NCBI GenBank assembly: GCA_021205185.1 | Contig: JAJPYB010000006.1 | Span: 124,001-188,000 of the forward strand | Length of the DNA stretch: 64,000 nt | From: Ruminococcus sp. | Lineage (GTDB): Bacteria > Bacillota > Clostridia > Oscillospirales > Ruminococcaceae | Reading direction: 5' to 3' | Shown here: positions 13,550 to 29,700 of the stretch, one piece after another | Position numbering within the stretch: the stretch's first letter is position 1 | How the letters are laid out: the number at the start of each line of letters is the position of its first letter | Position numbers and translations under genes: made by a program | The notes under the pieces: model-generated | Told to the model about the DNA's origin: nothing | Databases searched by the model: none | What the model saw: only the letters and a program-made list of their open reading frames with translations

Positions 13550-15829
13550 TTAGAATCTTATGTTAAGCGTTGCGCCCTTTTGCGTTTCAAAGACAAACGC
13601 TTCATTTTCATAACCCTTTAAGGTCATGCCGTCAGAAGCTTCTATTTCAGCGTTTTCAGGCGCCGCTACCCGAAGAACGCTTCCTGCTTTGGATAAGATT
13701 TCAGCGTCGACGCTGTCGCCCTTAAACTTAAAGTCAACCTCAAAGCCGCCTCTTGCCTGAGCGCCCTTAACCTCGCCCTCGTTCCACTGCTTTGGTCTTG
13801 CCGGCAGGAAAACGATCTCATTATTCTCGCTTTGCAAAAGAGCTTCAATGATAGCTGCTGTTCCGCCGAAATTTCCGTCAATCTGGAAAGGCGGATGGCT
13901 GTCGAACATATTCGGGTTTGTCGAACGATTTAAAAGCGCCTTTAAGTTTTCGTAAACCTTTTCGCCGTCGAACAATCTCGCCCACATATTTGTTATCCAC
14001 GCTCTGCTCCAGCCTGTATGGCCGCCGCCGTGAGCTAAGCGTCTGTCGATTGTAGCTCTCGCCGCCTTTGCAAGTGTCGGCGTTCCTCTGGTTGAAATAA
14101 TATCGGCAGGATAAAGCGCAAACAGCTGAGAAATGTGCCTGTGACCCGGCTCCTCCTCGTCGTAGTCCTCAGCCCATTCCTGAATCTGACCATACTTTCC
14201 GATTTCAGGCTTTGGCAGTCGGGAACGGATTTCGCTTACCTTTTCGCAAAACGCCTTATCTCTGTTCAAAAGCTTTCCTGATTCGATAACTGCTGTGAAA
14301 AGCTCGTATAAAATCTGACTGTCCATTGAAGGGCCGATACAAATCGAGCCCTTTGCGCCCGATTTTGTAATGTATGTATTTTCAGGCGATAGCGACGGAC
14401 AGGTAACAAGGTTACCCTGTTCGTTTGGAATCAAAAAGTCAACGAAAAATTTTGCTGCTTCCTTTAGCGTATCAAACTTGTTGTCCAAAAATTCTATATC
14501 CTGCGTGAATTTATAATGCTCCCAGATGTGAGTGCAGAGCCAAGCTGCGCCCATTGGCCATTGAGTTGCCGGAATCCACAAATCCTGCGGTGCGGTATCT
14601 CCCCAAAGATCGGTATTGTGGTGAGCGACAAAGCCGCCGCAGTTGTACATTTCCTTAGCTGTAACCCGTCCGTTTGGACGCATTTTTTCTATCAAATCAA
14701 ACAAAGGAGAATGAAGCTCAGAAAGATTACAAACCTCAACAGGCCAATAGTTCATCTCGGTGTTGATGTTTATTGTAAATCTTCCGCCCCATGCAGGCCA
14801 CATATTCTCGTTCCATATACCCTGTAGGTTAAGCGGCAGCGTTCCCTCTCGGCTTCCTGAAATCATCAGATATCTGCCGAAGTTAAAGTAAAGCTCTAAA
14901 AGCTTGTTGTCGACTAAATTCTCATCCCAAAAAGCGTTTAAGCGCTCGTTGGTCGGAAGGCTCTCCGTTTCGCTGCTTCCTCCAAGAGTTACGCTCATAC
15001 GATTGTAGTAGCTCTGGTAGTCCTTGATATGCTCTTCCTTTATTTCTTCAAAGCTCTTTTTTGCCGCCATTTCAGCGTCAAACATAGCCTTATCCTTATA
15101 GTCAGAGTGACGGTAGCTTGTCTGCGCTGAAATTAAAATCATAACCTCGTCGCAGTCCTTCGTTCTTAAAAAGCTTCCCTCGTAAAATACCTCGCCGCCT
15201 GTCGGCACCACCTTTACGACTGCCGCAAAGTTTATTCCGTCCTCGCCGCCGCAGCCGCCGTAGAACAAAATAGTATCGTTTGAAATTGGAGTATTGCTGT
15301 CAAAATAATCGTCACGTCCGTCGAGCAAAAGCCTTAAATTGATGCTGCCGCTTTTGTCGCTTGTATACCTGACTGCAATTACCTCATCAGGATAAGAAGC
15401 GATAATCTCACGGGTGTACTTCTTATCGCCCGCTTCAAACGAAACGGTAGCTACTGAGCTTTCAACATCAAGGGTTCTCTTATATTCCGTTTCCTCGCCG
15501 TCAAAATACTGCTCAACAGATAAATCGCCAAGCGGCATATAGTGACGCTCGTTAGAAGGAGTTCCACAGAAATTATCGTAAATAATTTTTTCAGCCTCAG
15601 CTATTTTCTCCTGCTTGATAAGAGTCCTTACCCTTTCGAGATTTGGCAAAGCGCTTTTGTTGTTTCTTTTTCTGGGGCCGCCCGACCAGACAGAATCCTC
15701 GTTCAGCTGATAGCGTTCCCTATGTGTACCGCCAAAAAGCATCGCACCCATTCTACCGTTTCCGATAGGAAGAGCTTCGTTCCAGTCTTTTGCGGGTTTG
15801 TCATACCAAAGTAATGTTGAATTGCTCAT
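13550..15829 (-). CDS. GH95 family alpha-L-fucosidase (cytoplasmic)
   Basis: 759 residues matching GH95 throughout: N-terminal beta-sandwich with LPIGNGRMGAMLFGG and QLNEDSVWSGGP, and an (alpha/alpha)6 barrel with NLQGIWNENMWPAWGG, NINTEMNYWPVEV, AHHNTDLWGDTAPQD and HRHISQLFALYP, which include the Asn/Asp/Glu positions used for catalysis in this family. These enzymes remove alpha-1,2-L-fucose or alpha-L-galactose. There is no signal peptide, so it should act on oligosaccharides already imported. It follows the ten-gene ABC operon in the same direction, after a terminator and about 270 bases, which suggests but does not prove a shared substrate. GAGAGG lies just before ATG 15829. Confidence 0.92.
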   Translation of the reverse strand: MSNSTLLWYDKPAKDWNEALPIGNGRMGAMLFGGTHRERYQLNEDSVWSGGPRKRNNKSALPNLERVRTLIKQEKIAEAEKIIYDNFCGTPSNERHYMPLGDLSVEQYFDGEETEYKRTLDVESSVATVSFEAGDKKYTREIIASYPDEVIAVRYTSDKSGSINLRLLLDGRDDYFDSNTPISNDTILFYGGCGGEDGINFAAVVKVVPTGGEVFYEGSFLRTKDCDEVMILISAQTSYRHSDYKDKAMFDAEMAAKKSFEEIKEEHIKDYQSYYNRMSVTLGGSSETESLPTNERLNAFWDENLVDNKLLELYFNFGRYLMISGSREGTLPLNLQGIWNENMWPAWGGRFTININTEMNYWPVEVCNLSELHSPLFDLIEKMRPNGRVTAKEMYNCGGFVAHHNTDLWGDTAPQDLWIPATQWPMGAAWLCTHIWEHYKFTQDIEFLDNKFDTLKEAAKFFVDFLIPNEQGNLVTCPSLSPENTYITKSGAKGSICIGPSMDSQILYELFTAVIESGKLLNRDKAFCEKVSEIRSRLPKPEIGKYGQIQEWAEDYDEEEPGHRHISQLFALYPADIISTRGTPTLAKAARATIDRRLAHGGGHTGWSRAWITNMWARLFDGEKVYENLKALLNRSTNPNMFDSHPPFQIDGNFGGTAAIIEALLQSENNEIVFLPARPKQWNEGEVKGAQARGGFEVDFKFKGDSVDAEILSKAGSVLRVAAPENAEIEASDGMTLKGYENEAFVFETQKGATLNIRF

Positions 15830-16046
15830 CTTGTTTGCCTCTCTTGTATTTTTACTGCTTCGTCATCCGTTCCAACTATAGTACCTGTATGAGCATCAGT
15901 ATGTTCATTAAACAAATAAAGTAAAATATCCCGCTTTTGGTAGCGGGTACATTCTTTATTTATTATATCAAAAATACGCTTTCTTTACAATACCATATAT
16001 GCCAAACTTTTTTAACGTTGTCTACCATATACACGACTGGTGACAA
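15830..16046. other. Intergenic region upstream of the GH95 gene
   Basis: Contains a hairpin with arms CCCGCT/AGCGGG (15930-15947) and AT-rich sequence. No clear -35/-10 pair; the GH95 promoter is presumably here. Confidence 0.4.
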
Positions 16047-16082
16047 CAAAAAACCGCCCCCGAGGATAACCCTTGGGGACGG
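16047..16082 (-). terminator. Terminator of the ten-gene ABC operon
   Basis: On the minus strand CCGTCCCCAAGG pairs with CCTCGGGGGCGG across a short loop and is followed by TTTTTT. Confidence 0.88.
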
Positions 16083-16099
16083 TAATTTTAAATCTACAA

Positions 16100-17149
16100 T
16101 TAACCTGTAAGACCTGAACGCTCGATACCCTCTGTAAAGTACTTCTGCAAGAAGATGTACAAAATAAGTATCGGTGCAATAGTGAGAATACATCCTGATT
16201 CAAGCCATACAATGAGCTGTCTTGGTCCAACCGTCTGGTTGTTAAATAAGTCAGCTGCAAGTGTTGAGTCAAGGTTCTTAAGCATCAGAGCTACTGTATC
16301 GTTCTGGTTGAAGAACGAAGACGATACGTAGTAGTCGTTCCAATACCATACTATTGAGAACAGGAATACTGTTAAGAATGCCGAACCTGCGTTTGGAACC
16401 ATTACAATAAGGAATGTCTTGAAAGGTCCGCAGCCGTCAAGATAAGCTGCGTCTTCAAGCTCCTTAGGAAGTCCCCTGAAGTTCTGCCTGAACAGGAATA
16501 TGAATAGTCCTGCTTTCAGTCCGTTTGCAAAGATTGCCGGTAGGTACATTGTCCAGCCCGTATTGATAAGGGAAATTCCCTCGCCGTTTGTGAACAATCC
16601 GATAATTCCCAGCGGATCAAAGTACGAATACTTTAAGTACATCGGGATTGTAATAATCTGAGGCGGAACAACGATCATCAAAATGACAATCATAAACAGC
16701 AAGCCCTTACCTTTAAACTGGAATCTTGCAAAGCCGTAGCCTGTAATAGCGCATGATGCAACATTGAGTACAGAAGCTACAAGATTGAGCTTTATGGTGT
16801 TTAAAACTGTTGAGCCGTATTTCATTACTTCCCATGTTTCTTTTATGTTTTGTAGGGTGAGCGACTTTGGAATCCAAATGATTGACGGGTCGTTCATCTG
16901 GGCATTCGGCCTGAATGCAGTTGAAATCATAAATATCAATGGATACAAAATGATGAAGCAAAGTCCGAACAGGATGAAAAATCTGAATATCGGCCAAACC
17001 TTTGAAATAATCGCCTTGTTTCTGTTGTAACGAATTTGCTCAGGAGTCAGATTTGGCTTGATTCCGAGTTTTTTCATTTCTTTGCGTTTGGCTTTCTTTG
17101 CAGCCTTCATTTCTTTCTCAAAGAGTTTTTCTTCTTTTCTGGTTGCCAA
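16100..17149 (-). CDS. CUT1-type sugar ABC permease, MalG-like (operon gene 10)
   Basis: Integral membrane subunit for solute passage. After a Lys-rich cytoplasmic N-terminus (KEMKAAKKAKRKEMKK) the MalG pattern of six membrane segments follows. The coupling loop reads LPKELEDAAYLDGCGPFKTF, which keeps the EAA-type contact site for a nucleotide-binding subunit. The start is uncertain: TTG 17149 (LATRKEEK), 14 bases after the previous stop and just behind a G8 tract that serves as Shine-Dalgarno, is the best choice and gives about 349 residues; the longer frame would overlap the upstream gene by more than 100 bases. Last gene of the operon, directly before its terminator. Confidence 0.88.
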   Translation of the reverse strand: MATRKEEKLFEKEMKAAKKAKRKEMKKLGIKPNLTPEQIRYNRNKAIISKVWPIFRFFILFGLCFIILYPLIFMISTAFRPNAQMNDPSIIWIPKSLTLQNIKETWEVMKYGSTVLNTIKLNLVASVLNVASCAITGYGFARFQFKGKGLLFMIVILMIVVPPQIITIPMYLKYSYFDPLGIIGLFTNGEGISLINTGWTMYLPAIFANGLKAGLFIFLFRQNFRGLPKELEDAAYLDGCGPFKTFLIVMVPNAGSAFLTVFLFSIVWYWNDYYVSSSFFNQNDTVALMLKNLDSTLAADLFNNQTVGPRQLIVWLESGCILTIAPILILYIFLQKYFTEGIERSGLTG

Positions 17150-17155
17150 GTCTAT

Positions 17156-17163
17156 CCCCCCCC
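17156..17163 (-). repeat. Homopolymer G8 tract acting as ribosome-binding site
   Basis: Eight consecutive G on the minus strand lie between the stop of one permease gene and the TTG start of the next. It replaces a normal GGAGG and is a possible site of slipped-strand length change. Confidence 0.6.
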
Positions 17164-18117
17164 TTATACTTCGTAATGAATGTGCTTGCTCAGGATTCCG
17201 GCCACTATTGCTAAGACTATGCCTACTATCGCAAAGTATGCCCAAGCCATAGCCGCCATATAACCGTAATTCCACGAGCTTTCTTGTGCCATGATAAGCT
17301 TCATTACCTGGTTCTCCGGGTCTACGAATGAATCAACAACCGTGTAAACCAGTGCAGCTAAAATCATAGGGCTGATATAAGGAATGGTAATCTTCCAGAA
17401 ATATTCCCAGCCTGTCGCTCCCTCCATCTGAGCCGCTTCCTTAGCGGTAAATGGAATGTTCTGTAAAGCTGAGAGGAATATCAGAATTTGTATTCCTGAA
17501 TCCCATACCAGATTGAAGATGTCGGTCGTTACTGATGAAATCGTTTCCGTCAGCGTATCGCTGATGTTGTAAATTCCTAAGAATTCCAACAGCTGATCGA
17601 CAAGGTCGGTTTCAAAGAGCGTGTTAAACTGCTCTGAACCTCCTGAATATCCACCTGTTGACATATTACCGTTGATAATTTCGATAACAGGTCCTGTTGC
17701 GATGATAACTGGCAGGAAGAATACTGCACGAGCGAAGGTTCTTCCTCTGAACTTCTGGTTCAGGATAACCGCTACGAATATCGAGAAGATAAGAATAAGC
17801 GGTGTGTTAAGTGCCGTATCACCAAGTACCGAAACCAGATACTGTGAATAGTGCTGGTCTTTTCTGAATGCGTCTATGTAGTGCTGTATTCCGTTCCATT
17901 CAAGTCCCATTACACCCTTTGATGGGGTTGTAATATTGAAGGAGTAAATAAGCGACTGTGCCAGCGGCATGATGAAGAAATATATAGTTCCGATCAGCCA
18001 CAGTGCGATAAACGCATATCCGTATAAAGCTTTTCTTCTTTCGTAAGGAATTCTCATTCCCTTTGCTTTTTTCTCTTTAGGAGGCTTAACTGCCTTTGCT
18101 GTTGCTTCCGTGCTCAT
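17164..18117 (-). CDS. CUT1-type sugar ABC permease, MalF-like (operon gene 9)
   Basis: 317-residue permease with a basic cytoplasmic N-terminus (AVKPPKEKKAKGMRIPYERR) and six membrane segments; residues 30-60 hold the first (YAFIALWLIGTIYFFIM). A sizeable extracellular loop after segment three contains Gly/Ser-rich sequence (NMSTGGYSGGSEQFN). The EAA loop is IPFTAKEAAQMEGATGWEYF. It begins in a TAATG overlap with the end of the DUF5696-like gene and is followed closely by its MalG-type partner, so the pair should form one heterodimer. No ATPase is adjacent. Confidence 0.9.
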   Translation of the reverse strand: MSTEATAKAVKPPKEKKAKGMRIPYERRKALYGYAFIALWLIGTIYFFIMPLAQSLIYSFNITTPSKGVMGLEWNGIQHYIDAFRKDQHYSQYLVSVLGDTALNTPLILIFSIFVAVILNQKFRGRTFARAVFFLPVIIATGPVIEIINGNMSTGGYSGGSEQFNTLFETDLVDQLLEFLGIYNISDTLTETISSVTTDIFNLVWDSGIQILIFLSALQNIPFTAKEAAQMEGATGWEYFWKITIPYISPMILAALVYTVVDSFVDPENQVMKLIMAQESSWNYGYMAAMAWAYFAIVGIVLAIVAGILSKHIHYEV

Positions 18118-20537
18118 TATTCTTCATCGCCTCCTTCCTCTAAGCATTGACTCACATCAATTTCCTGACCGTTTAGCTTTACGGTCTTGTTTGCGAGATC
18201 TACTTCAACTGTAGCTACATCCTCGCCGTCCTCAGTTCCGTAGGTCGTTACCGCTACCTGAGTTTCTGTGTCATAGTCGTAATTCGTAATTACATACTCG
18301 CCAAGATCCGATAGAACCTCGTCAACCACCTGCGACTGATTAGCTGCTTCATCAATCCATGATTCATAGTTTGCATAATACAAATCGTCATAATCTGTAT
18401 CGTGTAGAACTGAAGCGTCAGCGTAAATAAAGTCGTAATGAACGCTTGAGCCGTATGCTAACGCAAGCAGGAATGTTTCATCTGAATTTGAGCTTGCGTT
18501 TATAGCTGTTGTCGAATATGGAACATATCCGTGAACTATCATCTGATATAGAGGAATATCATAGTCAACGATGTTAAACTGGCTTGAGTAAACAGGTACG
18601 TTACTGATGTAATCTACATATGGAATGATGTAAGCGTTAGCCTCGTCTGCAAGTACCGAGCCGAGTGTTTCCTGAGCTTCCTGATAGTACTCAACTATTG
18701 TTTCAAGCATTTCCTTTCTGTTGCAATAGTTGCTTGAAGAGTAGTCAGAAACAAGCTTTGATGAGAATCCTCCGAAGGATACGTTTGTAAGCTCAGCGTC
18801 CGAATAGCTCTCTATAATCTGCGAGAATACCTTAGTATAAGCTGTTGGCGTCAATAGCGCCGGAGCTACTCCCGATTCCTCACCGAATGCCGGATTATAA
18901 CGAGTTTGTCTTGAGTAGGAGCCTGAAACTCTTATCGCTGTGCTTGTGAATGTGAAGTAGCCCCATGAGCTGCTTTCCATTTCCATATTGTCAAGCGCCG
19001 GATAAATCGTAATGTCATTCTCCTCGCCGTAAGCGATCAGAGCCTCGAGTCCGTCCGTTCCACCGACCGTTGAAGAAGCCTTCGCCTTAGTTGAAATCTT
19101 TCCGTCGATAGACTTATCAGTCCAGTCGTTGTAATTTACAACTATGTCGTCGGTTCCCGCATCCTTTAACAGCTGCAATATCTCCTGTGCCTGATCAAAG
19201 GTCGTTATCTCAGTCTGCAGGTCGAAAGGAATACCCAGAATAGAAGTTGACTTAATAACTGCGCCGTAGAAATCAACATACAAGCTTGTGCTGCTTTCCT
19301 CAGTTACGTTTGAAGTCATAGAGGTTGTTTCTACAAGATAATCTCTGTAAACCTTTGCAACGTCTGCGTAGTTAATTTCATCGTCTTCATCCTCAGTTGT
19401 AAGAGGATAGTAGGTAACGGCAATTGTTCCGAGCTGAATGTCGCCCTTTTCAAATACCTTCAGCGCTGAATTTTCACCGCTTAGCTCGTAGTCGTCAGAA
19501 CCGCGAACTTCAAATTCATAATAAAGCGAATTGTAGGTCTGGTTACCCTGACCGTTGATACGAGCGTTTACTATAACGTCCGAGTCGCCCTCAGTAACGA
19601 TTGCAACAAGCGCCTTGTTGTTCATAACGTGCGCTGCTACCGGGAAATACGCCTGCTCTGTAGTTCTTGGCTGCTGAAGAGGTACGTTTGTGTAGTTTCT
19701 TCCGTAAACCTTCTGCGAATAAACGGTTGAATAGTTGCCCTTGCCGTTGTTGTAATTGATAACTGCGCCCGTTCCGTCAGGAATAATCATATATCCTTCA
19801 ACGGCATTTCCCTCAGCGTCAGTTTCAGGCTGAGAAGCAAAGAACGGAGTGAGCTGAATTTCGGTAATTACCAGTCCCTCGTCGCTGTCCGGGTCTTCCT
19901 CTTCAATTTTCGACGTATCGCACGAAACTGTGAGGCCCTCCTCAGTAAGCGTATAGTCTACGGGAATTACAAAGCCCTGCTTTGTAAAGTCGTATGTAAT
20001 GGTAATTCCGTCACTGTTTGTTGTAATTGTTGTGTCAGCAACCTTTGATCTTCCTGATGTAGTTCCCGAATAAACTGTTGAAACCGTTCTGCTTTCACGG
20101 TTTCCGTAGGTTACTACAAGTCCTGAATTTAGCTGCTGTCTTTGAGCTGACTTCATAACCTTTGTGGAGTTCATAACAGTGTCGTCAGCTTCCGCATTTA
20201 TAGGTGTGCTCCACCAGTAGTTTGTCTGGCCGTTGCTTTCGTCGAGCAAGCAAACTCTTGCGTTTTCCTCGTCGTAGTAAAGAGATAAATCTCCTGCTGT
20301 CGCCGCAAGCTTACAAGCTGCAAGCGCTTCCTCGTCGGTTACCTTAGCGGGAAGCTCGTCGAGGTCCTCCTCAAGGTCTTCAAGAAGCTCTTCCTCGTCA
20401 ACTACCTCAGTAGTTGCTTCGGTTGCATCAGTCGTTTCCTCTTCGTCCTCAGCAAATGCGTTCATAATACCTGCCGGTAGGATCATGGTAACTACCAATG
20501 CACACGCTATGAGCTTTTTGATCTTATCCTTATGCAT
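18117..20537 (-). CDS. Exported DUF5696-like protein, probable TIM-barrel enzyme (operon gene 8)
   Basis: 806 residues. Signal peptide 1-29 (ends NAFA) without lipobox, then a Glu/Asp/Thr-rich spacer (30-62). The N-terminal third is beta-rich (LSLYYDEENARVCLLDESNG, GYMIIPDGTGAVINYNNGKG); the middle (about 420-690) has an alternating beta/alpha pattern (DDIVVNYNDWTDKSI, DITIYPALDNMEM, AYIIPYVDYIS, IPLYQMIVHGY) like a glycosidase-type barrel, and the end is a beta-sandwich. The overall layout matches what I remember of DUF5696 proteins next to sugar ABC genes; this is recall, not a search. No catalytic pair can be assigned. GGAGG is seven bases before ATG 20537. Confidence 0.75.
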   Translation of the reverse strand: MHKDKIKKLIACALVVTMILPAGIMNAFAEDEEETTDATEATTEVVDEEELLEDLEEDLDELPAKVTDEEALAACKLAATAGDLSLYYDEENARVCLLDESNGQTNYWWSTPINAEADDTVMNSTKVMKSAQRQQLNSGLVVTYGNRESRTVSTVYSGTTSGRSKVADTTITTNSDGITITYDFTKQGFVIPVDYTLTEEGLTVSCDTSKIEEEDPDSDEGLVITEIQLTPFFASQPETDAEGNAVEGYMIIPDGTGAVINYNNGKGNYSTVYSQKVYGRNYTNVPLQQPRTTEQAYFPVAAHVMNNKALVAIVTEGDSDVIVNARINGQGNQTYNSLYYEFEVRGSDDYELSGENSALKVFEKGDIQLGTIAVTYYPLTTEDEDDEINYADVAKVYRDYLVETTSMTSNVTEESSTSLYVDFYGAVIKSTSILGIPFDLQTEITTFDQAQEILQLLKDAGTDDIVVNYNDWTDKSIDGKISTKAKASSTVGGTDGLEALIAYGEENDITIYPALDNMEMESSSWGYFTFTSTAIRVSGSYSRQTRYNPAFGEESGVAPALLTPTAYTKVFSQIIESYSDAELTNVSFGGFSSKLVSDYSSSNYCNRKEMLETIVEYYQEAQETLGSVLADEANAYIIPYVDYISNVPVYSSQFNIVDYDIPLYQMIVHGYVPYSTTAINASSNSDETFLLALAYGSSVHYDFIYADASVLHDTDYDDLYYANYESWIDEAANQSQVVDEVLSDLGEYVITNYDYDTETQVAVTTYGTEDGEDVATVEVDLANKTVKLNGQEIDVSQCLEEGGDEE

Positions 20538-20549
20538 CGTGTTACCTCC

Positions 20550-21179
20550 TTAACCTCTTATACGGTATGTGATTTCCGTATAAATCTGATAGAAAAATGC
20601 GTATACCTGCTGGAACAAGCTTATAAGCAAAATTGCTAAGAACAGGATTATAAGCATTGCTACAAGCGTAAGAATTATCGAAAGGATTGTCTTTGAGAAG
20701 GAGTATTGGTGAACAGCTCTCATTCCCTGTATCATCAATATTACCGACCAGCCAAGTCCTACATATTCAAAAATGTATACCCAGACGGATTCGTCCAATG
20801 TCATAAAGTTTGTCAAAAATACGGAGATGTATGTTCCTATAATGTACGGAACCAGCGCATAAGCCGAATTTATACAAACCTTTTTCATTGTTCCTTCTCC
20901 GTCGAGAAGTGTACATATCGACCAGTTGCCGACAACCCATGTTGCAAAGTACACTACCGACTGAACAATAAGCGGAACTACGTTAAAGAACTTCTGCGGG
21001 TCTTCTGTATACTGAAAGCCCTTCAGACGCTCCTGCGCTACCATTGCAACAAACAAAAGTGCAACAATGATAAATGCGTATTTTAGCGAGCCTTTTTTCT
21101 TCCAACGTAAATCCTCAAAGCCTTCAACGGGGTGGAAAATAACGTGCTTTAACCAGCCGAGTTCTGAAAATTCATACAT
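20550..21179 (-). CDS. YIP1-type integral membrane protein (operon gene 7)
   Basis: 209 residues with about five membrane segments. The N-terminal FSELGWLKHVIFHPVEGFED and the first segment after KKKGSLKYAF are typical of bacterial YIP1/DUF1282-like proteins, whose function is unknown; some are thought to help assemble or position membrane complexes. It starts two bases after the NHL protein gene ends and stops 12 bases before the DUF5696-like gene, so it is firmly within the operon. A tempting inference is that it scaffolds the surface proteins with the permeases. Confidence 0.8.
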   Translation of the reverse strand: MYEFSELGWLKHVIFHPVEGFEDLRWKKKGSLKYAFIIVALLFVAMVAQERLKGFQYTEDPQKFFNVVPLIVQSVVYFATWVVGNWSICTLLDGEGTMKKVCINSAYALVPYIIGTYISVFLTNFMTLDESVWVYIFEYVGLGWSVILMIQGMRAVHQYSFSKTILSIILTLVAMLIILFLAILLISLFQQVYAFFYQIYTEITYRIRG

Positions 21180-21181
21180 TG

Positions 21182-22774
21182 CTATTTTCCTCCCTTCTTT
21201 TTAGGCTTTTTTCGTCGTGCAATAATTCGCCATACGACGATTGCTACTATAATAATCAGAAGTATCACTATTATTGCTGTGAAATGCCTTGACAAAAACT
21301 CTTCACGGTAATACTGATATGCCTTGTCGTAATTTTCGTTATCCTCAGCATATTCAAAATAATCCATCGCTTCTTCGTAGTTTCCTTCGTTAAGCGCTGC
21401 CTTACCGAGTCCCATATAAGCCATCCAGTATCCGCCGTCACGGCTTAATACCTCTTCCCATGGCTCCTTAGCTTCCTCGTACTTACCCTCTGCGTAAAGG
21501 TCTGCCGCCTCGTGAACCATTTTACCGAACTGAGTTTCTGTGAAGACTGTTATGTCGTTTTTCTTTCCGTCGATAACGTAAATCTTTTCACCTCTCGACT
21601 CAATAGCGTTAGGAGCTGTAAACGTTCCCTCCTGGTCTGAGGTTGAGTTCTTTGAACCGAATACGAACAGAAGGTTATTTTCCTGGTCGTACTGGAAAAT
21701 TCTTCCCGACTCATAGTCAAGCACGTTTATGTTCATATTGTCGCTTATAACAAGGTTGTCACTTATAACAAGGTCGGTAAGTCTTGTTTCAAAGCTCTCG
21801 TCTACCTCTGCTGTTGTGAAGTCTACCAAGTCGCCGAACTTGTATTCGTTACCTGTTGTGGTATCCCAGATGTTATATCCGGCAGGGTTTAGCTTCTTGA
21901 CAGCGTCCGTTGAAGTATTAGCGGCTTCTGTTACTGTATAAATGAAGCCTTCGCTGTCTATATCGAAGTTTGCAAACTCGACGTTTACATTTCTCTCCAT
22001 TGAAGCTAACTGCTCGTTTGAAGCAAACATTCTCCAAACTCTTTGTGCGACAACCGCAGCTGTAACCTCAACACGGTTAGCTCCGTAGAAGCCCTTAAAC
22101 TCACCGTCGGAAGCAAATTCAACCGCACCTTCTGTTACTGAAGATTCAACTGCATAAACGTTTCCTGTGCTGTCTACTAAAACCTTTGTCGGGTTAAAGG
22201 TTGAGGATGTGTAAAGCGCTGAATCCTCAGGCTTTACAAACTCCTGATCTACCGTTAAAAGCGTCGATGTTTCTGCGATTGCTCTGACAACTCTTGCATT
22301 GCTCGTATCTGCGATGTATACAAGCGGCAAGCCGTCGTCAGTTACTGCCACAAACAATCCTGTCGGACTGCTGAAATTTTCTGTATCGCTTCCTGAAACT
22401 GTATCGTAAGCGCCGATAACATTAAGGTCTGCGTCCAGTCTTAAAATTCTGTTGTTGCCTGTATCTGCAACCCAGAATTCGTCAAGCTCAGACTCATAGT
22501 AAATATCGCTTGCGCCCGATAAGCTATCAGAAGCTGCTTCTGATAAGAATAGTTCGTCATCAGGATCGGACAGTCTGTCAAGTCCCATACTGCTTCCGGC
22601 AACTACCTCATCAACTCTGTAACCGCTCTGCGAAGGAATTGCGTCATTCCAAGCGTCATAGTTATACGACACGTAAGGCTCGTCAGCTGATGCCGCTACG
22701 GCTGTCGTACTGAACACAAGTCCTGCTGCAAGAACGATTGACAATGTTTTCTTGAATTTATTCATTCTTGACAC
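21182..22774 (-). CDS. Surface NHL-repeat beta-propeller with TPR and C-terminal anchor (operon gene 6)
   Basis: 530 residues. Signal peptide about 1-30; residues about 65-420 are NHL-type propeller blades (DIYYESELDEFWVADTGNNR, LVYIADTSNARVVR, GNVYAVESSV, IRSF-like repeats); about 425-495 hold tetratricopeptide helices (AADLYAEGKYEEAKEPWEEV and GLGKAALNEGNYEEAMDYFE). A C-terminal membrane span (about 500-520, AIIVILLIIIVAIVVW) and a Lys/Arg-rich tail fix it with the propeller and TPRs outside the cell. It could act as a docking or substrate-presenting module for the transporter. Start at GTG 22774 or ATG 22765; neither ribosome-binding site is clearly better. Confidence 0.82.
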   Translation of the reverse strand: MSRMNKFKKTLSIVLAAGLVFSTTAVAASADEPYVSYNYDAWNDAIPSQSGYRVDEVVAGSSMGLDRLSDPDDELFLSEAASDSLSGASDIYYESELDEFWVADTGNNRILRLDADLNVIGAYDTVSGSDTENFSSPTGLFVAVTDDGLPLVYIADTSNARVVRAIAETSTLLTVDQEFVKPEDSALYTSSTFNPTKVLVDSTGNVYAVESSVTEGAVEFASDGEFKGFYGANRVEVTAAVVAQRVWRMFASNEQLASMERNVNVEFANFDIDSEGFIYTVTEAANTSTDAVKKLNPAGYNIWDTTTGNEYKFGDLVDFTTAEVDESFETRLTDLVISDNLVISDNMNINVLDYESGRIFQYDQENNLLFVFGSKNSTSDQEGTFTAPNAIESRGEKIYVIDGKKNDITVFTETQFGKMVHEAADLYAEGKYEEAKEPWEEVLSRDGGYWMAYMGLGKAALNEGNYEEAMDYFEYAEDNENYDKAYQYYREEFLSRHFTAIIVILLIIIVAIVVWRIIARRKKPKKKGGK

Positions 22775-22815
22775 TACTTATCACCATTCCTTTTCTGTAT
22801 ATTCGTTAAAACCGT

Positions 22816-23763
22816 CTAGTCCTTAATACCCGAATTAGCCATTGTTTCCATTACGTTGCCTTGAGCAACCATAAATATTACCAATGGCGGAATCATAAGT
22901 AGTACCGCTGTTGCAAATGTTACGCCCTGACGTGCAATACCTGATGCTGAAACCTGCTGCATAATTGTCGGGAGGGTTTTTAGCTCCTCTGAGTAAATTA
23001 AGGAACCTCCCTGTACCTGCCAAGCTGCCTGGAATGCGAAAATCAAAAGCGTCATCATAGCAGGCTTTGAGTTTGGTATTACTACCTGCCAGCAGATTCT
23101 GAAAAGTCCTGCGCCGTCTACTCTCGCCGCTTCAATCATTGAGTCGTGTATAGTTGAAATACTCTGTCTCATAAGGAAGAGGTTCATTGACGTTGCAACG
23201 CTCGGAAGTATCAGCGCCCAGTATGTATCAATCATATTAAGAGTTGCCATTACGAGGAACTGCATAATCCACAGCGCTGAAGACGTAAACAAAAGTGCCG
23301 TAACAATTATTTTGTTTATTGCCGCTGCTCCCGGGAACTTACATTTTGCAAGTACGAATGCCGCACAGCAAGAAACGAAGATGTTTGAAATTGTAACTAC
23401 TACTGTAACAAATACGCTGTTAAATATGTATCTTGAAAGCGGAACCCAAAGGCTTGACGCTACCTTAAACATATCCGAATAGTTTACAAGCGTGGGCTCT
23501 AATACGTAAAGCTTTGGCGGGAATACGAAAAGCTCGTGTACCGGCTTAAACGATTGAATTACTGCGTAGTAAAGCGGGAATATCATAAATAATCCCAAAA
23601 GTGTCAGGAAGATAAAGATTACAATATCACCTGCGAGAGAGCTGCTAGATTTTCTTTTTCTCTTTTTAACATGGACCTTGTTAATGTCCATATTCTTTTG
23701 TCTTTTTCTAAGCCTTTTAATGGCTTTTTCTTGTTTCTTTTTCTCTTTTTCGCTAAGTCCCAT
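22816..23763 (-). CDS. CUT1-type sugar ABC permease, MalG-like (operon gene 5)
   Basis: 315 residues from ATG 23763 (MGLSEKEKKKQEKAIKRLRK). The alternative GTG 23775 lies inside the GGAGGTGA ribosome-binding site and is unlikely. A long, strongly basic cytoplasmic N-terminus of about 45 residues precedes six membrane segments. The coupling loop contains DSMIEAARVDGAGLFRICWQ, a good EAA motif. Forms a pair with the MalF-like permease directly upstream (stop/start nearly contiguous). Confidence 0.9.
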   Translation of the reverse strand: MGLSEKEKKKQEKAIKRLRKRQKNMDINKVHVKKRKRKSSSSLAGDIVIFIFLTLLGLFMIFPLYYAVIQSFKPVHELFVFPPKLYVLEPTLVNYSDMFKVASSLWVPLSRYIFNSVFVTVVVTISNIFVSCCAAFVLAKCKFPGAAAINKIIVTALLFTSSALWIMQFLVMATLNMIDTYWALILPSVATSMNLFLMRQSISTIHDSMIEAARVDGAGLFRICWQVVIPNSKPAMMTLLIFAFQAAWQVQGGSLIYSEELKTLPTIMQQVSASGIARQGVTFATAVLLMIPPLVIFMVAQGNVMETMANSGIKD

Positions 23764-23778
23764 TTGTAATCTCACCTC

Positions 23779-24717
23779 CTAGTCTAAGTATTTGGCAAGC
23801 AATCGATTGATAAGCTGATTTACCAAGAGCATTGCCAGGAACAATACGAAACATATTGCTGACGCATATCCCATTTCGTAACGAATTGTACCATAGTCGG
23901 TAGCGTGGTTCATAACCGTGTGCGCTACATAGTCTGTTGAAGGTAATCCTACCAATGACTGTCCGACTGTACCTACTGTGAACGCTGCTGAAATCTGAAG
24001 TACGGCTGCGAACAAAAGCTGTGGTCCCATTGAAGGAATTGTGATGGAGAATAGCTCCTGCCAGCGGTTTTTAATTCCCTCAACGGCGCCTGCTTCATAC
24101 ATCGTCTTATCGATGTTCTGGAAACCTGCACGGAGTGAAAGGAATCCGGCACCCATTGAAATCCAAAGCTGTACGATAACTACAACGGTAAAGATGTAGG
24201 TCGTATCTGTCAGCCACTGAATTGGTGAAGTGATAATTCCGAGATCCAATAGCACTGCGTTGAAGTATCCATATGTATCTCCTGAGAACAGAAGCTGCCA
24301 GATAACGTATACTGACGGTGTCATTGAAGGTGCGTAGAATACGAATGTAAATATTGTTTTGAGCGCAGGGTGCATCTCATTTATTAGCCACGCCAGGAAG
24401 AACGAAAGCACATATGAGAATGGTCCTGTGAAGATTGCCATTACAAGAGTGTTCTTAACGGCTATCATAAACGTATCGTCGTTCAGGAACAGGGTTGTAA
24501 AGTTTGAAAGTCCGACAAACTGTGGGAACTGTACCATATTAAAGTTTGTAAATCCCATTGGGAGTGACATTATAACCGGTACAATAGTAAAGATTGTGAA
24601 GAGAATCATAAACGGAGCAAGCATTGCATAGCAGCCGATGTTATTTCTCATCAAATGAAGTGTATATCTGACTTTGCCTTGATTTTTAAGTGGTCCTTCC
24701 ACCTTAGTTTTTGCCAT
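23779..24717 (-). CDS. CUT1-type sugar ABC permease, MalF-like (operon gene 4)
   Basis: 312 residues with six membrane segments, the first at about residues 32-54 (AMLAPFMILFTIFTIVPVIM). Its coupling loop is DKTMYEAGAVEGIKNRWQEL, an EAG variant of the EAA motif. It begins 14 bases after the solute-binding protein gene, with GGGAG seven bases before ATG 24717. Order solute-binding protein, MalF, MalG is the standard sugar-importer order. Confidence 0.92.
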   Translation of the reverse strand: MAKTKVEGPLKNQGKVRYTLHLMRNNIGCYAMLAPFMILFTIFTIVPVIMSLPMGFTNFNMVQFPQFVGLSNFTTLFLNDDTFMIAVKNTLVMAIFTGPFSYVLSFFLAWLINEMHPALKTIFTFVFYAPSMTPSVYVIWQLLFSGDTYGYFNAVLLDLGIITSPIQWLTDTTYIFTVVVIVQLWISMGAGFLSLRAGFQNIDKTMYEAGAVEGIKNRWQELFSITIPSMGPQLLFAAVLQISAAFTVGTVGQSLVGLPSTDYVAHTVMNHATDYGTIRYEMGYASAICFVLFLAMLLVNQLINRLLAKYLD

Positions 24718-24731
24718 TTACTCACTCCCCC

Positions 24732-27695
24732 TTAATCGCTTCCGACCGATATTTCAAGGTCTTCAAGTTTTCTCTCAATCTCGCTGTTAATATCCTTGTT
24801 GTACCACATCAGAGTATCTCTTGGATTTTCTGAATTATTAACAGTTTCTCTGAAAGCGTTCATTATATTTCTCGTTACAGCATATGAAGCAGGAATTACA
24901 GGAATCTCATCTTGTGTTTCAAACTGTGCAAGAAGCTTTGTCATATCCGATGTGCTCCATGAAAGCTGCTCAAGAGCTTCGAGGTTCGCAGTATCAAATC
25001 TACCCATTGTGCCCATTACAGCTTCAATGTCATAAGCGTACTCAACCTGAGTTTCAGTAGAAGTAAACCACTTGATAAACTCCCAAGCTGCCTCCTGGTT
25101 TTCGCACTTCTTAAAGATTATAGCGCCCGTACCTGTTGAGTTAGCTGTGTGGTCGATTGTTCCGTCCTCCTGAAGAGTTCCCGGAACTGTTGTCATTCCC
25201 CAGCAGCCCTTGATTTCAGGTGCTGATACTGTTACCTGATTATAGAATGTATACGGCTGAATCAAAAGCGGCATATCACCGGTTCTGAATCTTGTAAAGC
25301 CGTCGTACTGCTGATCAAACGAATATGTTGTATAGAACTTTGTCCATGTGGTGAATGCGTCAATTGCTTCCTGCTGGTCAAAGGTTGTTGACGTCTGATC
25401 CTCTGTATAGTAGTTAAGTCCCTGCTGAAGCATCAGCATAGCGAATGTGTTACCGGCTTCAACTGTTGTAGAAACTACCGCAGTACCGTTTGCAGATGTG
25501 TTCTGAGTTGTAGGAAGTACAAGTCCTACTTCCATATAGTTGCTCTGAAGTACAGGGAGAATATCAATCAGGTCGTCCCATGTTTTAATATCCTCTTCAG
25601 CGTCGATTCCATACTCCTCTAAAATGTCTTCTCGGTAGAACATCATCGGTATCGTCTGACTGACAGGCAATCCGTAAGTTCCGCCGTTGTACTCATACAA
25701 AACAGAAGCATTTTCCTGGAATCTCGTCATAACCTCATCATAGTCGTCAAAGGTTGTAAGGTCCGTTAAAACGTCACGCGCGGCTAGCTGTATCGGGAAG
25801 TCTCCTCCGATAAACAGCGCTATGTCCGGACCCTTGCCGGCGAGCGTCGCTTCGACTATACCTCCTTGAACCAGATTTACGGTTATCTTTGTATCGCTTG
25901 TCGGGTTAAAGTCACTTTCTACTAGCTGGTTTACAACCTGCGCCTGGTCACGTCCTAAAGATACCCAGCATACCAGCGAGTCTTCGGTTTCTGTTGAAAG
26001 TGAGTTATAATCCTCAAAGAAGGAACCGATGAAAGCCTGGAAGCCAAATGAAAGGCTGTCGAGGAATCCCTCGTCGACTGAATCGAAATCCTTACCCGCA
26101 GGAGCTAACTGGAACATATCAATTTCCAGCGGCTGCTCTCTGTATTCTCTCATCCATGATGAAACTGATGTGATGTTATCCTTGATCTGAGAAAGGTTTG
26201 AAGGAATGTTTATAGGTCTGTCAACACAGTTGTCCAGAACGATTGCCATCTTTTCAAGCGTAACCGCTTCTGAACCTGCAACACCTGAAAGTGCTTCGAT
26301 TTCGTCCTTCTTGGCGATAAGCTCATCGCTCAAACGCTCGAAATCGCTGATAATATCAGGAAGGACCTTGTCTATCTGATAGTCGTTGTACTCGTCCGGA
26401 TCAGGACCTGTTATCTGACGAATCTTTCTGTAGTAGCTTGTAATCTCGTATACTACGTCGTCAAGCTCTGCCATTATATCTCCGATTTCTCCAGGAATTG
26501 CTTCAAGAGTAATCGTGTGAGTTCCAGCTTCGAGATAATAATAGATGTCGTTTCCGTCCTCGTCCTGAGGTGTTGTAACCGTCCAGTCGGAAGAATAGTA
26601 GAACTTGATCTGCTCGCTCTCGGTGTTTGGAACAACTCCGTCGATGTAGAGCTTTCTGTTTGAATAAAGACCTCTCATCTGATCCTGTCTGCCGCGGATA
26701 CCTAATTTATAGTATCCCGACGTTTCAACCTCAACCTCCCATGTTATTGATTGAGTTGACTGCGACCAGTTTTCAGAACCGATTGTGTTATACTTTGTCT
26801 TTGTAGGGTCTGACGGCTGTGTGATAGATGAGTTTCTGTCACTTGTAGGGGATAATGTTCTGTCAGACTTATAAATTGCGTCCTCGCCCTGAACTGTAAT
26901 AACGTCTGCGTCGCTGTTAGCTTCAAGCTCAGAATCGCTCGGAGCTACGTAAGCTTCAGTTTCAGGTTCCTGAGTAAGCTTGATGCTCTCGATAGCAAAT
27001 TGAGCCTTTACAGATTCAAGAGTGACTGTATGCTCACCAGCTTCAAAATAGAACCAAAGAGCGTCGTTGTAAAGTCCGTCGATGTCCTTCAAGTAGGTTT
27101 CCTGCCAGCAAACCTCTTCAACCTGTCCAGGTCTGATGTCGTTACCGTTGTCGTCCTTCTTGATGTCCTCCTCGTTTACCCATCTCTTGGATAATGTAAT
27201 ACGAGTAGCGGTGTCGTATGGAGCCTCCCCGTCAATTTGTAGCTCAAGCTCAACGCTGTCTGTTGAACCTGCTAACGCCTCGTAGCTAATTGTTATTGCG
27301 TAAAGTCCGCTCTCTGCAACAGTTACAGGAAAGCTTACGCTTCCGTCCTGATTTGCCCATTTCAAAGCTGTCTTTCCGTCAACCTCTTCAACTGAAAGCT
27401 CAGCTACAGAGTCGCCTGTATATTCCGGCTGATATTCGCTTGAATAGATATAGCCCTCGTCGTCGGCTACCTCTGGACGAGTTTCGTCTGCATACATCTC
27501 ACGATAGTCTATGTATGAAGGAACGTCGTCCGACTCGTCTTCGTCTTCGTCAAGATCAAGATCGTCGTCAGCAGTTTCAGAAGCGGTAGTTGTATCCTGC
27601 TCTTCGTCATCTGCATAAACGGCAACCGCCGATGAAGCGAACGTCGTCAAAGCAAGCGAAAAAGCTAAAACTCTCATCAAAAGTTTGTGTTTCAC
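24732..27695 (-). CDS. Very large exported solute-binding protein with N-terminal carbohydrate-binding-like modules (operon gene 3)
   Basis: 987 residues from GTG 27695 (AAAGGTGG upstream). Signal peptide 1-28 (ends VYA) lacks a lipobox cysteine. After an acidic spacer come two beta-sandwich modules at about 100-250 and 265-420; both carry the ESGLYAITISYE / TSGYYKLGIRG and EAGEHTVTLESV / EAGTHTITLEAIPG pattern of CBM6/35-like or galactose-binding folds. A helical stretch (about 425-560) follows, then a family 1 sugar-binding lobe pair (about 565-970: GKGPDIALFIGGDFPIQLA, LPVSQTIPMMFYRED, NSTGTGAIIFKK). This is twice the length of an ordinary solute-binding protein. Together with the permeases it defines an importer-like unit of unknown substrate. 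Confidence 0.88.
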   Translation of the reverse strand: MKHKLLMRVLAFSLALTTFASSAVAVYADDEEQDTTTASETADDDLDLDEDEDESDDVPSYIDYREMYADETRPEVADDEGYIYSSEYQPEYTGDSVAELSVEEVDGKTALKWANQDGSVSFPVTVAESGLYAITISYEALAGSTDSVELELQIDGEAPYDTATRITLSKRWVNEEDIKKDDNGNDIRPGQVEEVCWQETYLKDIDGLYNDALWFYFEAGEHTVTLESVKAQFAIESIKLTQEPETEAYVAPSDSELEANSDADVITVQGEDAIYKSDRTLSPTSDRNSSITQPSDPTKTKYNTIGSENWSQSTQSITWEVEVETSGYYKLGIRGRQDQMRGLYSNRKLYIDGVVPNTESEQIKFYYSSDWTVTTPQDEDGNDIYYYLEAGTHTITLEAIPGEIGDIMAELDDVVYEITSYYRKIRQITGPDPDEYNDYQIDKVLPDIISDFERLSDELIAKKDEIEALSGVAGSEAVTLEKMAIVLDNCVDRPINIPSNLSQIKDNITSVSSWMREYREQPLEIDMFQLAPAGKDFDSVDEGFLDSLSFGFQAFIGSFFEDYNSLSTETEDSLVCWVSLGRDQAQVVNQLVESDFNPTSDTKITVNLVQGGIVEATLAGKGPDIALFIGGDFPIQLAARDVLTDLTTFDDYDEVMTRFQENASVLYEYNGGTYGLPVSQTIPMMFYREDILEEYGIDAEEDIKTWDDLIDILPVLQSNYMEVGLVLPTTQNTSANGTAVVSTTVEAGNTFAMLMLQQGLNYYTEDQTSTTFDQQEAIDAFTTWTKFYTTYSFDQQYDGFTRFRTGDMPLLIQPYTFYNQVTVSAPEIKGCWGMTTVPGTLQEDGTIDHTANSTGTGAIIFKKCENQEAAWEFIKWFTSTETQVEYAYDIEAVMGTMGRFDTANLEALEQLSWSTSDMTKLLAQFETQDEIPVIPASYAVTRNIMNAFRETVNNSENPRDTLMWYNKDINSEIERKLEDLEISVGSD

Positions 27696-27768
27696 AGTGT
27701 ATCCACCTTTCCTATAAAATGTTTTCGCCGATTTATTATTTCCCTACAACGGGTGAAAGCGATATTTG

Positions 27769-28746
27769 TCAGGTTGATTTAAAAATCTGGATTTTTCCAG
27801 ATTGTTCATCAAGCTCAACCTTCAGCTTATCTCCGCCCTTGATTCCGAGCGTTTCAAGATAATCCTTTGGAATCTGAAGCCGTCCTGAGCGGTCAAGCAC
27901 TATCAGCTCCTCCGGCTGGGAGTCTTCAAGCTGCGACTTATCGCCCTTTTCGGCAATGTCTTCAAGATTTCCGCCGAGGTCTTTGATCTCTTCGGCATAG
28001 GATTTCTTTCTTATAATTTCAGAGCTTGTTCTGCCATCTCTGATAGCAACTACCCTGTCTATGTGCTTTGCAAGCTTAACGTCGTGGGTAACAATTACAA
28101 CTGTTATCCCCTCGGTTCTGTTAAGCTCCTTGAAAATGTCGAGAATTACGTTCGACGTTTTGGTATCAACCGCTCCTGTCGGCTCGTCGGCGAGCAAAAG
28201 CTTCGGAGAATTCGCAAGTGCTATTGCAATTGCTACTCTTTGCTGCTCTCCTCCTGACATCTGGTCAAGTCGTGAGCCTGCACGGTTTGAAAGTCCTACC
28301 TTGTCAAGCAGCTCAAGCGCTCTTTCACGCCGCTGCTTTGAACCCTTCAGGAGCATTGGCATTTCAACATTCTGAACTGCCGTCAGATACGGAATAAGGT
28401 TTCTCGCATTATTCTGCCACACAAAACCAACCGTATTTCTCTTGTACTCCATATAATCTCTGTCGGAAAATTTAAGCAAGTTCTTTCCGTCTACGGTAAG
28501 GCTTCCTGCGCTCGGCTTATCAAGTCCTCCGAGCATATTGAGCAGCGTACTTTTACCGCTTCCTGAATTTCCGACAATCGCCATCAGCTCTCCACGCTTG
28601 ACGTCAAGGTCCAGGCCTTGAAGAGCTACTACCTCAACCTCGCTTGTTTTGTAAATTTTTACGAGGTTTTCACAGCGTATCATATACTCGTCATTTATGT
28701 CTGCTATATTATTTTCATCAACTAAAGTGTCACTCAACAATCTCAC
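27769..28746 (-). CDS. MacB/LolD-type ABC ATPase with C-terminal AbrB-like domain (operon gene 2)
   Basis: 325 residues. Residues about 20-255 form a complete nucleotide-binding domain: Walker A GNSGSGKST, Q-loop WQNN, signature MSGGEQQRVAIAIALA, Walker B LLLADEPTGAVD, H-loop THD. It belongs to the FtsE/LolD/MacB class, not to the MalK class. After a polar linker the last 48 residues (278-325) read LDRSGRLQIPKDYLETLGIK then GGDKLKVELDEQSGKIQIFK, which is an AbrB/SpoVT swapped-hairpin pattern normally found in DNA-binding regulators. Such a fusion is unusual. The start (GTG 28746, or TTG 28740/28737) overlaps the upstream ATPase gene by up to 17 bases, so the two are translationally coupled. 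Confidence 0.88.
   Translation of the reverse strand: MRLLSDTLVDENNIADINDEYMIRCENLVKIYKTSEVEVVALQGLDLDVKRGELMAIVGNSGSGKSTLLNMLGGLDKPSAGSLTVDGKNLLKFSDRDYMEYKRNTVGFVWQNNARNLIPYLTAVQNVEMPMLLKGSKQRRERALELLDKVGLSNRAGSRLDQMSGGEQQRVAIAIALANSPKLLLADEPTGAVDTKTSNVILDIFKELNRTEGITVVIVTHDVKLAKHIDRVVAIRDGRTSSEIIRKKSYAEEIKDLGGNLEDIAEKGDKSQLEDSQPEELIVLDRSGRLQIPKDYLETLGIKGGDKLKVELDEQSGKIQIFKST
27772..27915 (-). other. AbrB/SpoVT-like domain coding segment
   Basis: Covers residues 278-325 of the ABC ATPase. SGRLQIPKDYLETLGIKGG has the 'x-I-P-x-x-x-R/L-x-x-L-x-I-x-x-G-D' spacing of AbrB-fold proteins. Confidence 0.7.
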
Positions 28747-29407
28747 CGTCCTCTAGTGTGTAAACCTTATCGGCTACATCCATCATGCTGGGGTCGTGAG
28801 TGGTCATAACAATTGTCATTCCCTCTTTTGCGACAAGCTCTTTGAATAGCTTTACTATGTACAGTGCCGTCTGAGTGTCAAGCTCTGCGGTAGGCTCGTC
28901 GGCAAAAATAATCTTTGGCGAGTGTGCAATCGCTCTTGCAATCGCTACTCTCTGCTGCTCGCCTCCGCTCATCTCACCGGGTCGGTGATGCATTCTTTTA
29001 GCAAGGCCGACGTTTGCCAGGCATTCCTTGACTCTTTCATCCCGCTTCGCTGCCGGGTATCCCGAAAGCCGAAGTCCGAACTCAACATTTTCATATCCGG
29101 TCATACTGGATATGAGCGCAACAGACTGGAATACAAACGCCATATCATATCGCCGTTTTTCATCCCTTTGTCCATCACTGAGCGATGTAAGGTCCTCGTC
29201 GAGAAACATTACCTTTCCTTCGGTGGGTCGGTCGAGACAGCCTAAAATGTTTATAAGTGTTGTCTTTCCGCTTCCCGAACGTCCTCTCAAGACGGTAAGC
29301 TTGCCCTGCTCTATTTCAATATTTATATTTTTAAGCGCATGAACAATATTCTGATCGCTGATTTTAAAATCTCTGCTGACGTTTTCAGCAGATAATATAA
29401 CGCTCAA
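28730..29407 (-). CDS. MacB/LolD-type ABC ATPase (operon gene 1)
   Basis: About 225 residues from TTG 29407 (LSVILSAENVSRDF) with a GGAAGG/GGCGG purine tract upstream; an in-frame TTG at 29434 is possible. Complete nucleotide-binding domain: Walker A GRSGSGKTT, Q-loop FQSVA, signature MSGGEQQRVAIARAIA, Walker B IIFADEPTAELD, H-loop THDP. It is the exporter-type class that usually partners FtsX-like permeases, yet no FtsX-like gene is in the operon. It would form a heterodimer with the next ATPase. What it energises, the four MalF/G permeases or something else, is the central open question of the locus. Confidence 0.9.
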   Translation of the reverse strand: MSVILSAENVSRDFKISDQNIVHALKNINIEIEQGKLTVLRGRSGSGKTTLINILGCLDRPTEGKVMFLDEDLTSLSDGQRDEKRRYDMAFVFQSVALISSMTGYENVEFGLRLSGYPAAKRDERVKECLANVGLAKRMHHRPGEMSGGEQQRVAIARAIAHSPKIIFADEPTAELDTQTALYIVKLFKELVAKEGMTIVMTTHDPSMMDVADKVYTLEDGEIVE

Positions 29408-29449
29408 TGTACCGCCGCCCTTCCGAAAACGCAAAAAAGCATTTTTATT

Positions 29450-29464
29450 TGTGCAAATTGCACA
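29450..29464. promoter_or_regulatory. Inverted repeat A in the ABC operon leader
   Basis: TGTGCAAATTGCACA, a perfect 15-base palindrome around its central base, about 45 bases upstream of the first ATPase start. It resembles inverted repeat B upstream of the promoter; a LacI-like or other dimeric regulator could bind both. Confidence 0.45.
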
Positions 29465-29478
29465 TTTTGATTTTTAGG

Positions 29479-29519
29479 AAAAAGAATAATAAGCTTTCTA
29501 GCACTTTTGGCTAAAAGCT
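29479..29519 (-). terminator. Terminator-like hairpin in the ABC operon leader (possible attenuator)
   Basis: Minus-strand arms AGCTTTTAGC and GCTAGAAAGCT (one bulge), then TATTATTCTTTTT, between promoter and first gene. It could attenuate the operon. Confidence 0.4.
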
Positions 29520-29601
29520 ACTATAAATCCCCCATTTTCGCACCCATTTTTTAGCAAATGAAACAAATAATCGCCAATCTGAGCGCAATTTTCTATTCAT
29601 A

Positions 29602-29630
29602 ATTATAGCAAAAAGGCTTGATGATGTCAA
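29602..29630 (-). promoter_or_regulatory. Sigma-A promoter of the ten-gene ABC operon
   Basis: TTGACA (29625-29630) and TATAAT (29602-29607), spacing exactly 17: a full consensus promoter on the minus strand. Confidence 0.92.
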
Positions 29631-29681: not shown

Positions 29682-29700
29682 TTTGTGCAATTTTCACAAA
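29682..29700. promoter_or_regulatory. Inverted repeat B upstream of the ABC operon promoter
   Basis: TTTGTG-N7-CACAAA, containing TGTGCAA as in repeat A, about 52 bases upstream of the -35 box. Confidence 0.4.

Follow-up and report, generated by a model that had tools for sequence, protein, structure and literature searches.

Sugar importers of the CUT1 kind that use a shared MsmX/MsmK-type ATPase, such as C. thermocellum transporter B with Clo1313_2554 and B. subtilis AraNPQ with MsmX, combine MalF/G-type permeases carrying EAA loops with a sugar solute-binding protein (SBP), and their clusters lack an ATPase gene, a multitask ATPase being encoded elsewhere. According to PMC9601137, cellodextrin transporter B of C. 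thermocellum is powered by Clo1313_2554, an ATPase encoded outside its cluster; a deletion mutant of this ATPase grew neither on Avicel nor on cellobiose, and the protein has been crystallised and its structure solved. Exporters of the YknWXYZ, MacAB and Spr0693-0695 kinds join a LolD/MacB-class ATPase to an FtsX-domain permease and an HlyD-type adaptor (MFP), and PMC4887032 describes YknW, a Yip1 protein, as a modulator of YknXYZ exporter assembly in Bacillus. The genome analysed here shares these features of both kinds, and comparison of related genomes makes it probable that two transport systems lie on one transcript: a cassette importer driven by an MsmX-type ATPase, and an exporter in which two ATPases, NbdA and NbdB, work with an HlyD-type adaptor and an FtsX permease.

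The window, a 64-kb stretch of a 1.75-Mb host genome, contains ten minus-strand open reading frames at positions 16100-29434 with short gaps or overlaps, as the sequence-only reading had described. Pfam and NCBIfam bore out its gene assignments, identifying two ATPases of the LolD/MacB class, an SBP, an NHL/TPR protein, a Yip1 protein (7.9e-16), a DUF5696 protein (9.6e-155) and four permeases, three of them as BPD_transp_1 by Pfam; the fourth, PermA, had no Pfam match and was caught by NCBIfam sugar/polyamine permease models only, below their cut-offs. The operon itself contains neither an FtsX-like nor a MalK-like gene; a MalK/MsmX-like gene is found at 34573-35715. The candidate sigma-70 promoter (29602-29630, minus strand) matches TTGACA-17-TATAAT at 12/12 positions when read from 29630 to 29602, and this predicted site ranks first among 28 promoter-like sites in the region, where shuffles lead one to expect 25.6 +/- 5.1. 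The predicted intrinsic terminator on the same strand is a hairpin at about 16047-16082 (-23.4 kcal/mol, z -4.6; equalled by 0/200 shuffles, folded as 16040-16090); a consensus terminator scan restricted to loops of 3-8 did not list it, probably because of that loop limit. A shared transcript would run between these two sites. Operator-like palindromes related to TTGTGCAAWWTGCACAA flank the promoter on both sides, upstream at 29683-29699 and downstream at 29449-29465; nowhere else does the 64-kb window contain a 16/17 match. The best palindrome score was reached by 0/200 Markov shuffles of the upstream region, and the best site 5' of NbdB scored at least 14/17 in 13/15 sequences examined.

Judged by gene order, the conserved unit is the eight genes SBP-PermA-PermB-NHL-YIP1-DUF5696-PermC-PermD, not ten. 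DUF5696 matches were present in 33/299 genomes of the phylum, 119/391 of the class, 37/61 relatives and 15/15 of the genus, those above the family cut-off numbering 26, 96 and 37 genomes for phylum, class and relatives. We fetched 80 loci (up to 20 kb) around such matches, picked for spread and kinship and including 14 from the genus, and counted gene order from HMM scans of all six frames, which are free of the tendency of an ORF-based gene finder to hide genes beneath longer antisense frames. The exact order was found in 41/80. Thirty further loci without a separate YIP1 carried NHL and YIP1 as one ORF in every case (for example L128:6087-8180, and likewise the 29 others), 25 of them with the other cassette genes all present and in order, and one more had a split YIP1, so that 67/80 hold the cassette; nine of the remaining 13 end at a contig edge, and L066, L067, L083 and L147 differ in content or order. 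A second set consisted of 80 named loci, those with the highest-ranking PermA matches out of at least 594; the exact order occurred in 68/80, and L290 showed the NHL-YIP1 fusion. The nearest cassettes among these best 80 of at least 594 belong to MAGs labelled Lapin (uncultured Clostridia) and to Ruminococcus, including R. bicirculans 80/3; overall, carriers are numerous among rumen MAGs and include gut Ruminococcus, for instance R. bicirculans and R. callidus. One record titled Alistipes (L249) has a Ruminococcus-type cassette, with PermA at 64-68%, and is probably a mislabelled MAG.

Models of NbdA and NbdB detected no ATPase within the cassette in the 80 fetched and 80 named loci. The NbdB-NbdA pair stood directly 5' of it in 15 of the exact-order fetched loci and 31 of the exact-order named loci, to which L274, cut at its far end, adds one, giving 32/80 named loci headed by the pair. 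Other, more distant ABC ATPases adjoin the cassette in L098 and L139. The sequence-only reading had named a lack of conservation of the gene set elsewhere as a refuting outcome, and this did not occur, as eight of the ten genes are conserved together. A single composite machine driven by the MacB-type ATPases is not supported, because the cassette is conserved across Bacillota mostly without them.

NbdB (28730-29434, minus strand), a LolD/MacB/DevA-class ABC ATPase, and NbdA (27769-28746, minus strand), of the LolD class, were assigned by Pfam and NCBIfam and are putative exporter motors. All four ATPase motifs are kept in 32/32 relatives of NbdB passing filters, and the motifs of NbdA in 29/29; OB and TOBE domains are absent from both. 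A C-terminal AbrB/MazE-like domain is fused to the NbdA ATPase at aa 285-321, its motif being present in 28/29 relatives. The host genome (G000) gave 14 FtsX-domain matches, whose locations were set against those of the ATPase matches. The closest FtsX permease to the pair (about 10 kb, C8:163896) proved to have its own ATPase alongside (C8:162473). A 970-aa permease with two PF02687 domains (C11:159451-162360) has no ATPase match nearby and is directly preceded by an HlyD-type adaptor gene (HlyD_2, 1e-9), the two together spanning C11:158405-162360. The genome contains each constituent of a MacAB/YknXYZ-type exporter, namely LolD/MacB-class ATPases with complete motifs, an FtsX-domain partner and an HlyD-type MFP.

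Of 61 relatives, 20 have both NbdA (at E <= 1e-100) and the 970-aa permease, and the other 41 have neither (Fisher 1.6e-16, a statistic that ignores kinship). The threshold matters here, as at E <= 1e-45 some ABC match is present in 60/61, the next value below the twenty being 1e-63. One genome that is 84% complete (G681) keeps the cassette, with NbdA and the FtsX permease both missing. A second sample, covering 50 of the 80 named loci and overlapping the first by three genomes, gave the FtsX permease in 31/32 NbdA-positive genomes (the miss being G757) and 0/18 NbdA-negative ones; both samples together yield 51/52 NbdA-positive genomes, with three genomes counted twice. In distant genomes (L208, L209, L210 and L349-L352) the order MFP-FtsX-NbdB-NbdA is found together and away from the cassette, and L348 has NbdB-MFP-FtsX-NbdA. 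A tblastn adaptor match adjoins FtsX in the FtsX-holding regions, weak in some, with 21-29% identity in several distant loci, and the adaptor-position gene of L210 had no Pfam match. The AbrB-like domain ends NbdA in L208-L210 too. Because the pair tracks an FtsX permease without an ATPase of its own, and not the cassette, NbdA and NbdB are most likely the motors of a distinct export pump whose other genes lie elsewhere in the genome; on co-occurrence and distribution we reject the pair as part of the cassette. The sequence-only reading had named a pairing of the ATPases with an FtsX-like permease elsewhere as an outcome that would tell against it, and this is where co-occurrence and linkage point. 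The exporter would differ from YknWXYZ, MacAB and Spr0693-0695 in its two distinct ATPases, its single permease with two FtsX domains, the AbrB-like ATPase tail and, in this lineage, the splitting of ATPase and permease genes; a permease with two FtsX domains and two unequal ATPases may fit one asymmetric complex.

In R. bicirculans the MFP-FtsX genes directly follow PermD, so that the whole locus reads NbdB-NbdA-cassette-MFP-FtsX, and in five other loci they lie within about 2.5 kb 3' of the cassette (6/20 regions in total); in the earlier-fetched regions (L149, L213, L214 and L216-L218) they were near the cassette in 0/6. Cassette-linked NbdA sequences (34 rows) formed one group against 9 others with support 99/96 in a tree that contained row L348 in a wrong frame, and with support 89 in a corrected quick tree. 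Of the 32 named loci with NbdA, L221, L227, L228 and L294 are missing from both trees, having been removed by length and identity filters. This grouping is compatible with a single joining event. An operator common to both exporter halves is not supported: before the MFP gene, 7/30 rows contained the palindrome at a score reached by at most 3/200 shuffles and the other 23 did not, in a set where four pairs of rows are the same place taken twice and one row (L187) is misplaced.

The heading of the cassette by the ATPase pair in 32/80 named loci and its flanking by exporter halves in 6/20 regions hint at a functional link that two separate systems do not explain. An alternative that we regard as unlikely would unite NbdA, NbdB, MFP, FtsX permease and cassette in one functional import-export machine; alongside import by the cassette, the exporter would for example secrete, load or release something such as a surface component or an unwanted part of the glycan. 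Besides the R. bicirculans locus, this reading draws on the class sample, where 53/391 genomes have NbdA orthologues (E <= 1e-75) and 30/53 of these have a strong DUF5696 match (Fisher 2.6e-10), and it is kept alive because YknW, a Yip1 protein, modulates YknXYZ assembly according to PMC4887032, the YIP1 protein here being taken as a YknW-type partner. Within families, however, co-occurrence of NbdA and cassette was not significant (CMH p 0.11; 13 families from listings, 8 informative). The exporter genes also stand apart from the cassette in distant families, most cassettes are without exporter genes, no Yip1 protein was found among ten neighbours of three exporters (L208-L210), and the NbdB palindrome is not general before MFP (duplicates included in the 30 rows).

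The cassette itself begins with a giant secreted SBP (24732-27695, minus strand, as are all the genes that follow), in which a pair of beta-sandwich regions and a helical linker accompany an extracytoplasmic SBP domain of the sugar class; one of the beta-sandwich regions matches CBM35, though at a score under the Pfam cut-off. No lipobox was present in 55/55 relatives examined, and a looser pattern matched 6/76 named-locus SBPs. The permeases are PermA (23779-24717, MalF/UgpA-like by NCBIfam; highly conserved, at 45-85% identity in 16 relatives) and, by Pfam and NCBIfam, PermB (22816-23775, MalG/UgpE-like), PermC (17164-18117, UgpA-like) and PermD (16100-17275, MalG-like), the listed start of the last giving a 112-base overlap with PermC and the true start probably lying near 17149. 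All four have EAA-type loops in the window. With our own widened regular expression, the motif was found in 69/70 relatives of PermA, 66/66 of PermB, 60/75 of PermC (15/75 being without it as so defined) and 69/71 of PermD, and in none of the shuffled permeases (one shuffle each). Between the permease genes lie those for the NHL/TPR surface protein (21182-22774), with a signal peptide and a C-terminal transmembrane segment (hydrophobic at aa 491), the YIP1-family membrane protein (20550-21179) and the extracellular DUF5696 protein (18117-20537). The cassette differs from the CUT1/MsmX importers in having two pairs of permeases, a single giant SBP that carries CBM-like domains but no lipobox, and constant partners of the NHL, YIP1 and DUF5696 families.

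NHL and YIP1 scaffolds are unusual in importers. This, the missing lipobox and the presence of one SBP for two permease pairs would suit a glycan sensor, or a system that assembles the cell envelope, whose membrane parts resemble permeases but do not import; we consider that reading improbable, as the EAA loops and the SBP fold are intact and extra SBPs and glycosidases adjoin the cassette in some species.

The proposed motor of the four permeases is the MsmX-type multitask importer ATPase at 34573-35715 (minus strand), which has the ABC, OB and TOBE domains expected of a CUT1 importer ATPase. Among solved structures it matches best 7x0q (573 bits, "ABC transporter related protein"), which may correspond to Clo1313_2554, and B. 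subtilis MsmX 6yir (437 bits). PMC7658222 discusses the MsmX residues D77, R104, E110 and K154, and the window protein keeps two of the four, D77 and R104. An MsmX-type gene (E <= 1e-90) is present in 76/80 cassette genomes, defined by a strong DUF5696 match (E below 1e-60), against 210/311 others; the four without a close match are 72, 88, 93 and 96% complete. Such genes are frequent overall (286/391 class genomes), and the enrichment is not specific, since sugar importers of the CUT1 kind may all use MsmX. The host genome has a second PF00528 permease pair with no ATPase match nearby (C6:35091-36577), also a candidate client of the MsmX-like ATPase.

In a still wider arrangement, thirteen components (the cassette, the MsmX-type motor, MFP and FtsX, and the two ATPases) would make one two-way machine, in which the AbrB-like tail reports transporter state to the paired operators and the exporter extrudes a molecule, or moves the secreted SBP and GH129-like proteins, so that glycans are released and imported. 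The exporter is tied to the cassette there by the operon of this lineage and the R. bicirculans locus; taken jointly, these proposals seem to us improbable. It is very improbable that in this lineage NbdA and NbdB have taken over from MsmX as the motor of PermA-D: the two are the first genes of the same operon and a pair would suit hetero-dimeric permeases, but they are of the LolD/MacB class without OB/TOBE, almost every NbdA-positive genome (51/52) has the FtsX permease, the cassette persists without the pair, and the window genome retains its MsmX-type gene.

Under the preferred reading of two transport systems on one transcript, the cassette probably captures and imports plant sugars. A glycan role is supported indirectly by the GH129 fold, the CBM35-like and sugar-SBP domains and neighbouring glycosidases; a GH95 glycosidase outside the operon (13550-15829, minus strand, 3' of the terminator) is a clue to substrate. 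Pfam scans of the flanks covered 77 upstream and 110/111 downstream proteins, one having been left out for its size, and the first 25 of 89 and of 152 families were listed. In 13/14 genus loci the cassette is followed by an ORF of 759-779 aa, some of these ORFs having been scanned; the remaining locus is cut. The DUF5696 protein shows a GH129 fold and sequence kinship by fold and profile matches, at about 14% identity to GH129 hydrolases (NagBb, ZgGH129). The main profile alignment to 5opq ends before the catalytic region: its last residue is 435, whereas the title of 8rzk names D486; a second short piece spans the C-terminus only. A narrower profile gave no longer alignment, and a narrow 48-row profile matched GH129 at E 0.48 only. 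The conserved acids of the DUF5696 protein are not universal (D598 in 32/40, D658 in 31/40).

The cassette would act as a surface machine for glycan capture and import. The secreted SBP, through its carbohydrate-binding-like domains, and the GH129-fold DUF5696 protein would bind a plant oligosaccharide outside the membrane and perhaps trim it, the NHL/TPR-YIP1 pair may serve as a membrane-anchored scaffold, and PermA/B and PermC/D would form two CUT1-type permease pairs, both driven by the shared MsmX-type ATPase. NbdB and NbdA would be the unequal ATPases of a MacAB/YknXYZ-like exporter with the HlyD-type adaptor and the 970-aa two-FtsX-domain permease. The second option of the sequence-only reading, in which import is powered by the MsmX-like ATPase and the MacB-type ATPases serve another purpose, is well supported by the comparison.

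With good comparative support, the presence of exporter ATPases next to importer permeases is best explained by two systems on one transcript. The exporter is a clear case of an ATPase pair parted from its permease, which can mislead annotation that relies on operons. The cassette appears to be a variant, found widely, of an importer type already known, and no description of it was found in the literature searched: no paper there mentions DUF5696 (PF18952), yet the family exceeds its cut-off in 96/391 class genomes, and nothing relevant to the YIP1/NHL/SBP combination was among the matches listed. The association of a GH129-like surface protein, a giant SBP, an NHL-YIP1 scaffold and two permease pairs suggests a Gram-positive counterpart of surface glycan-capture complexes.
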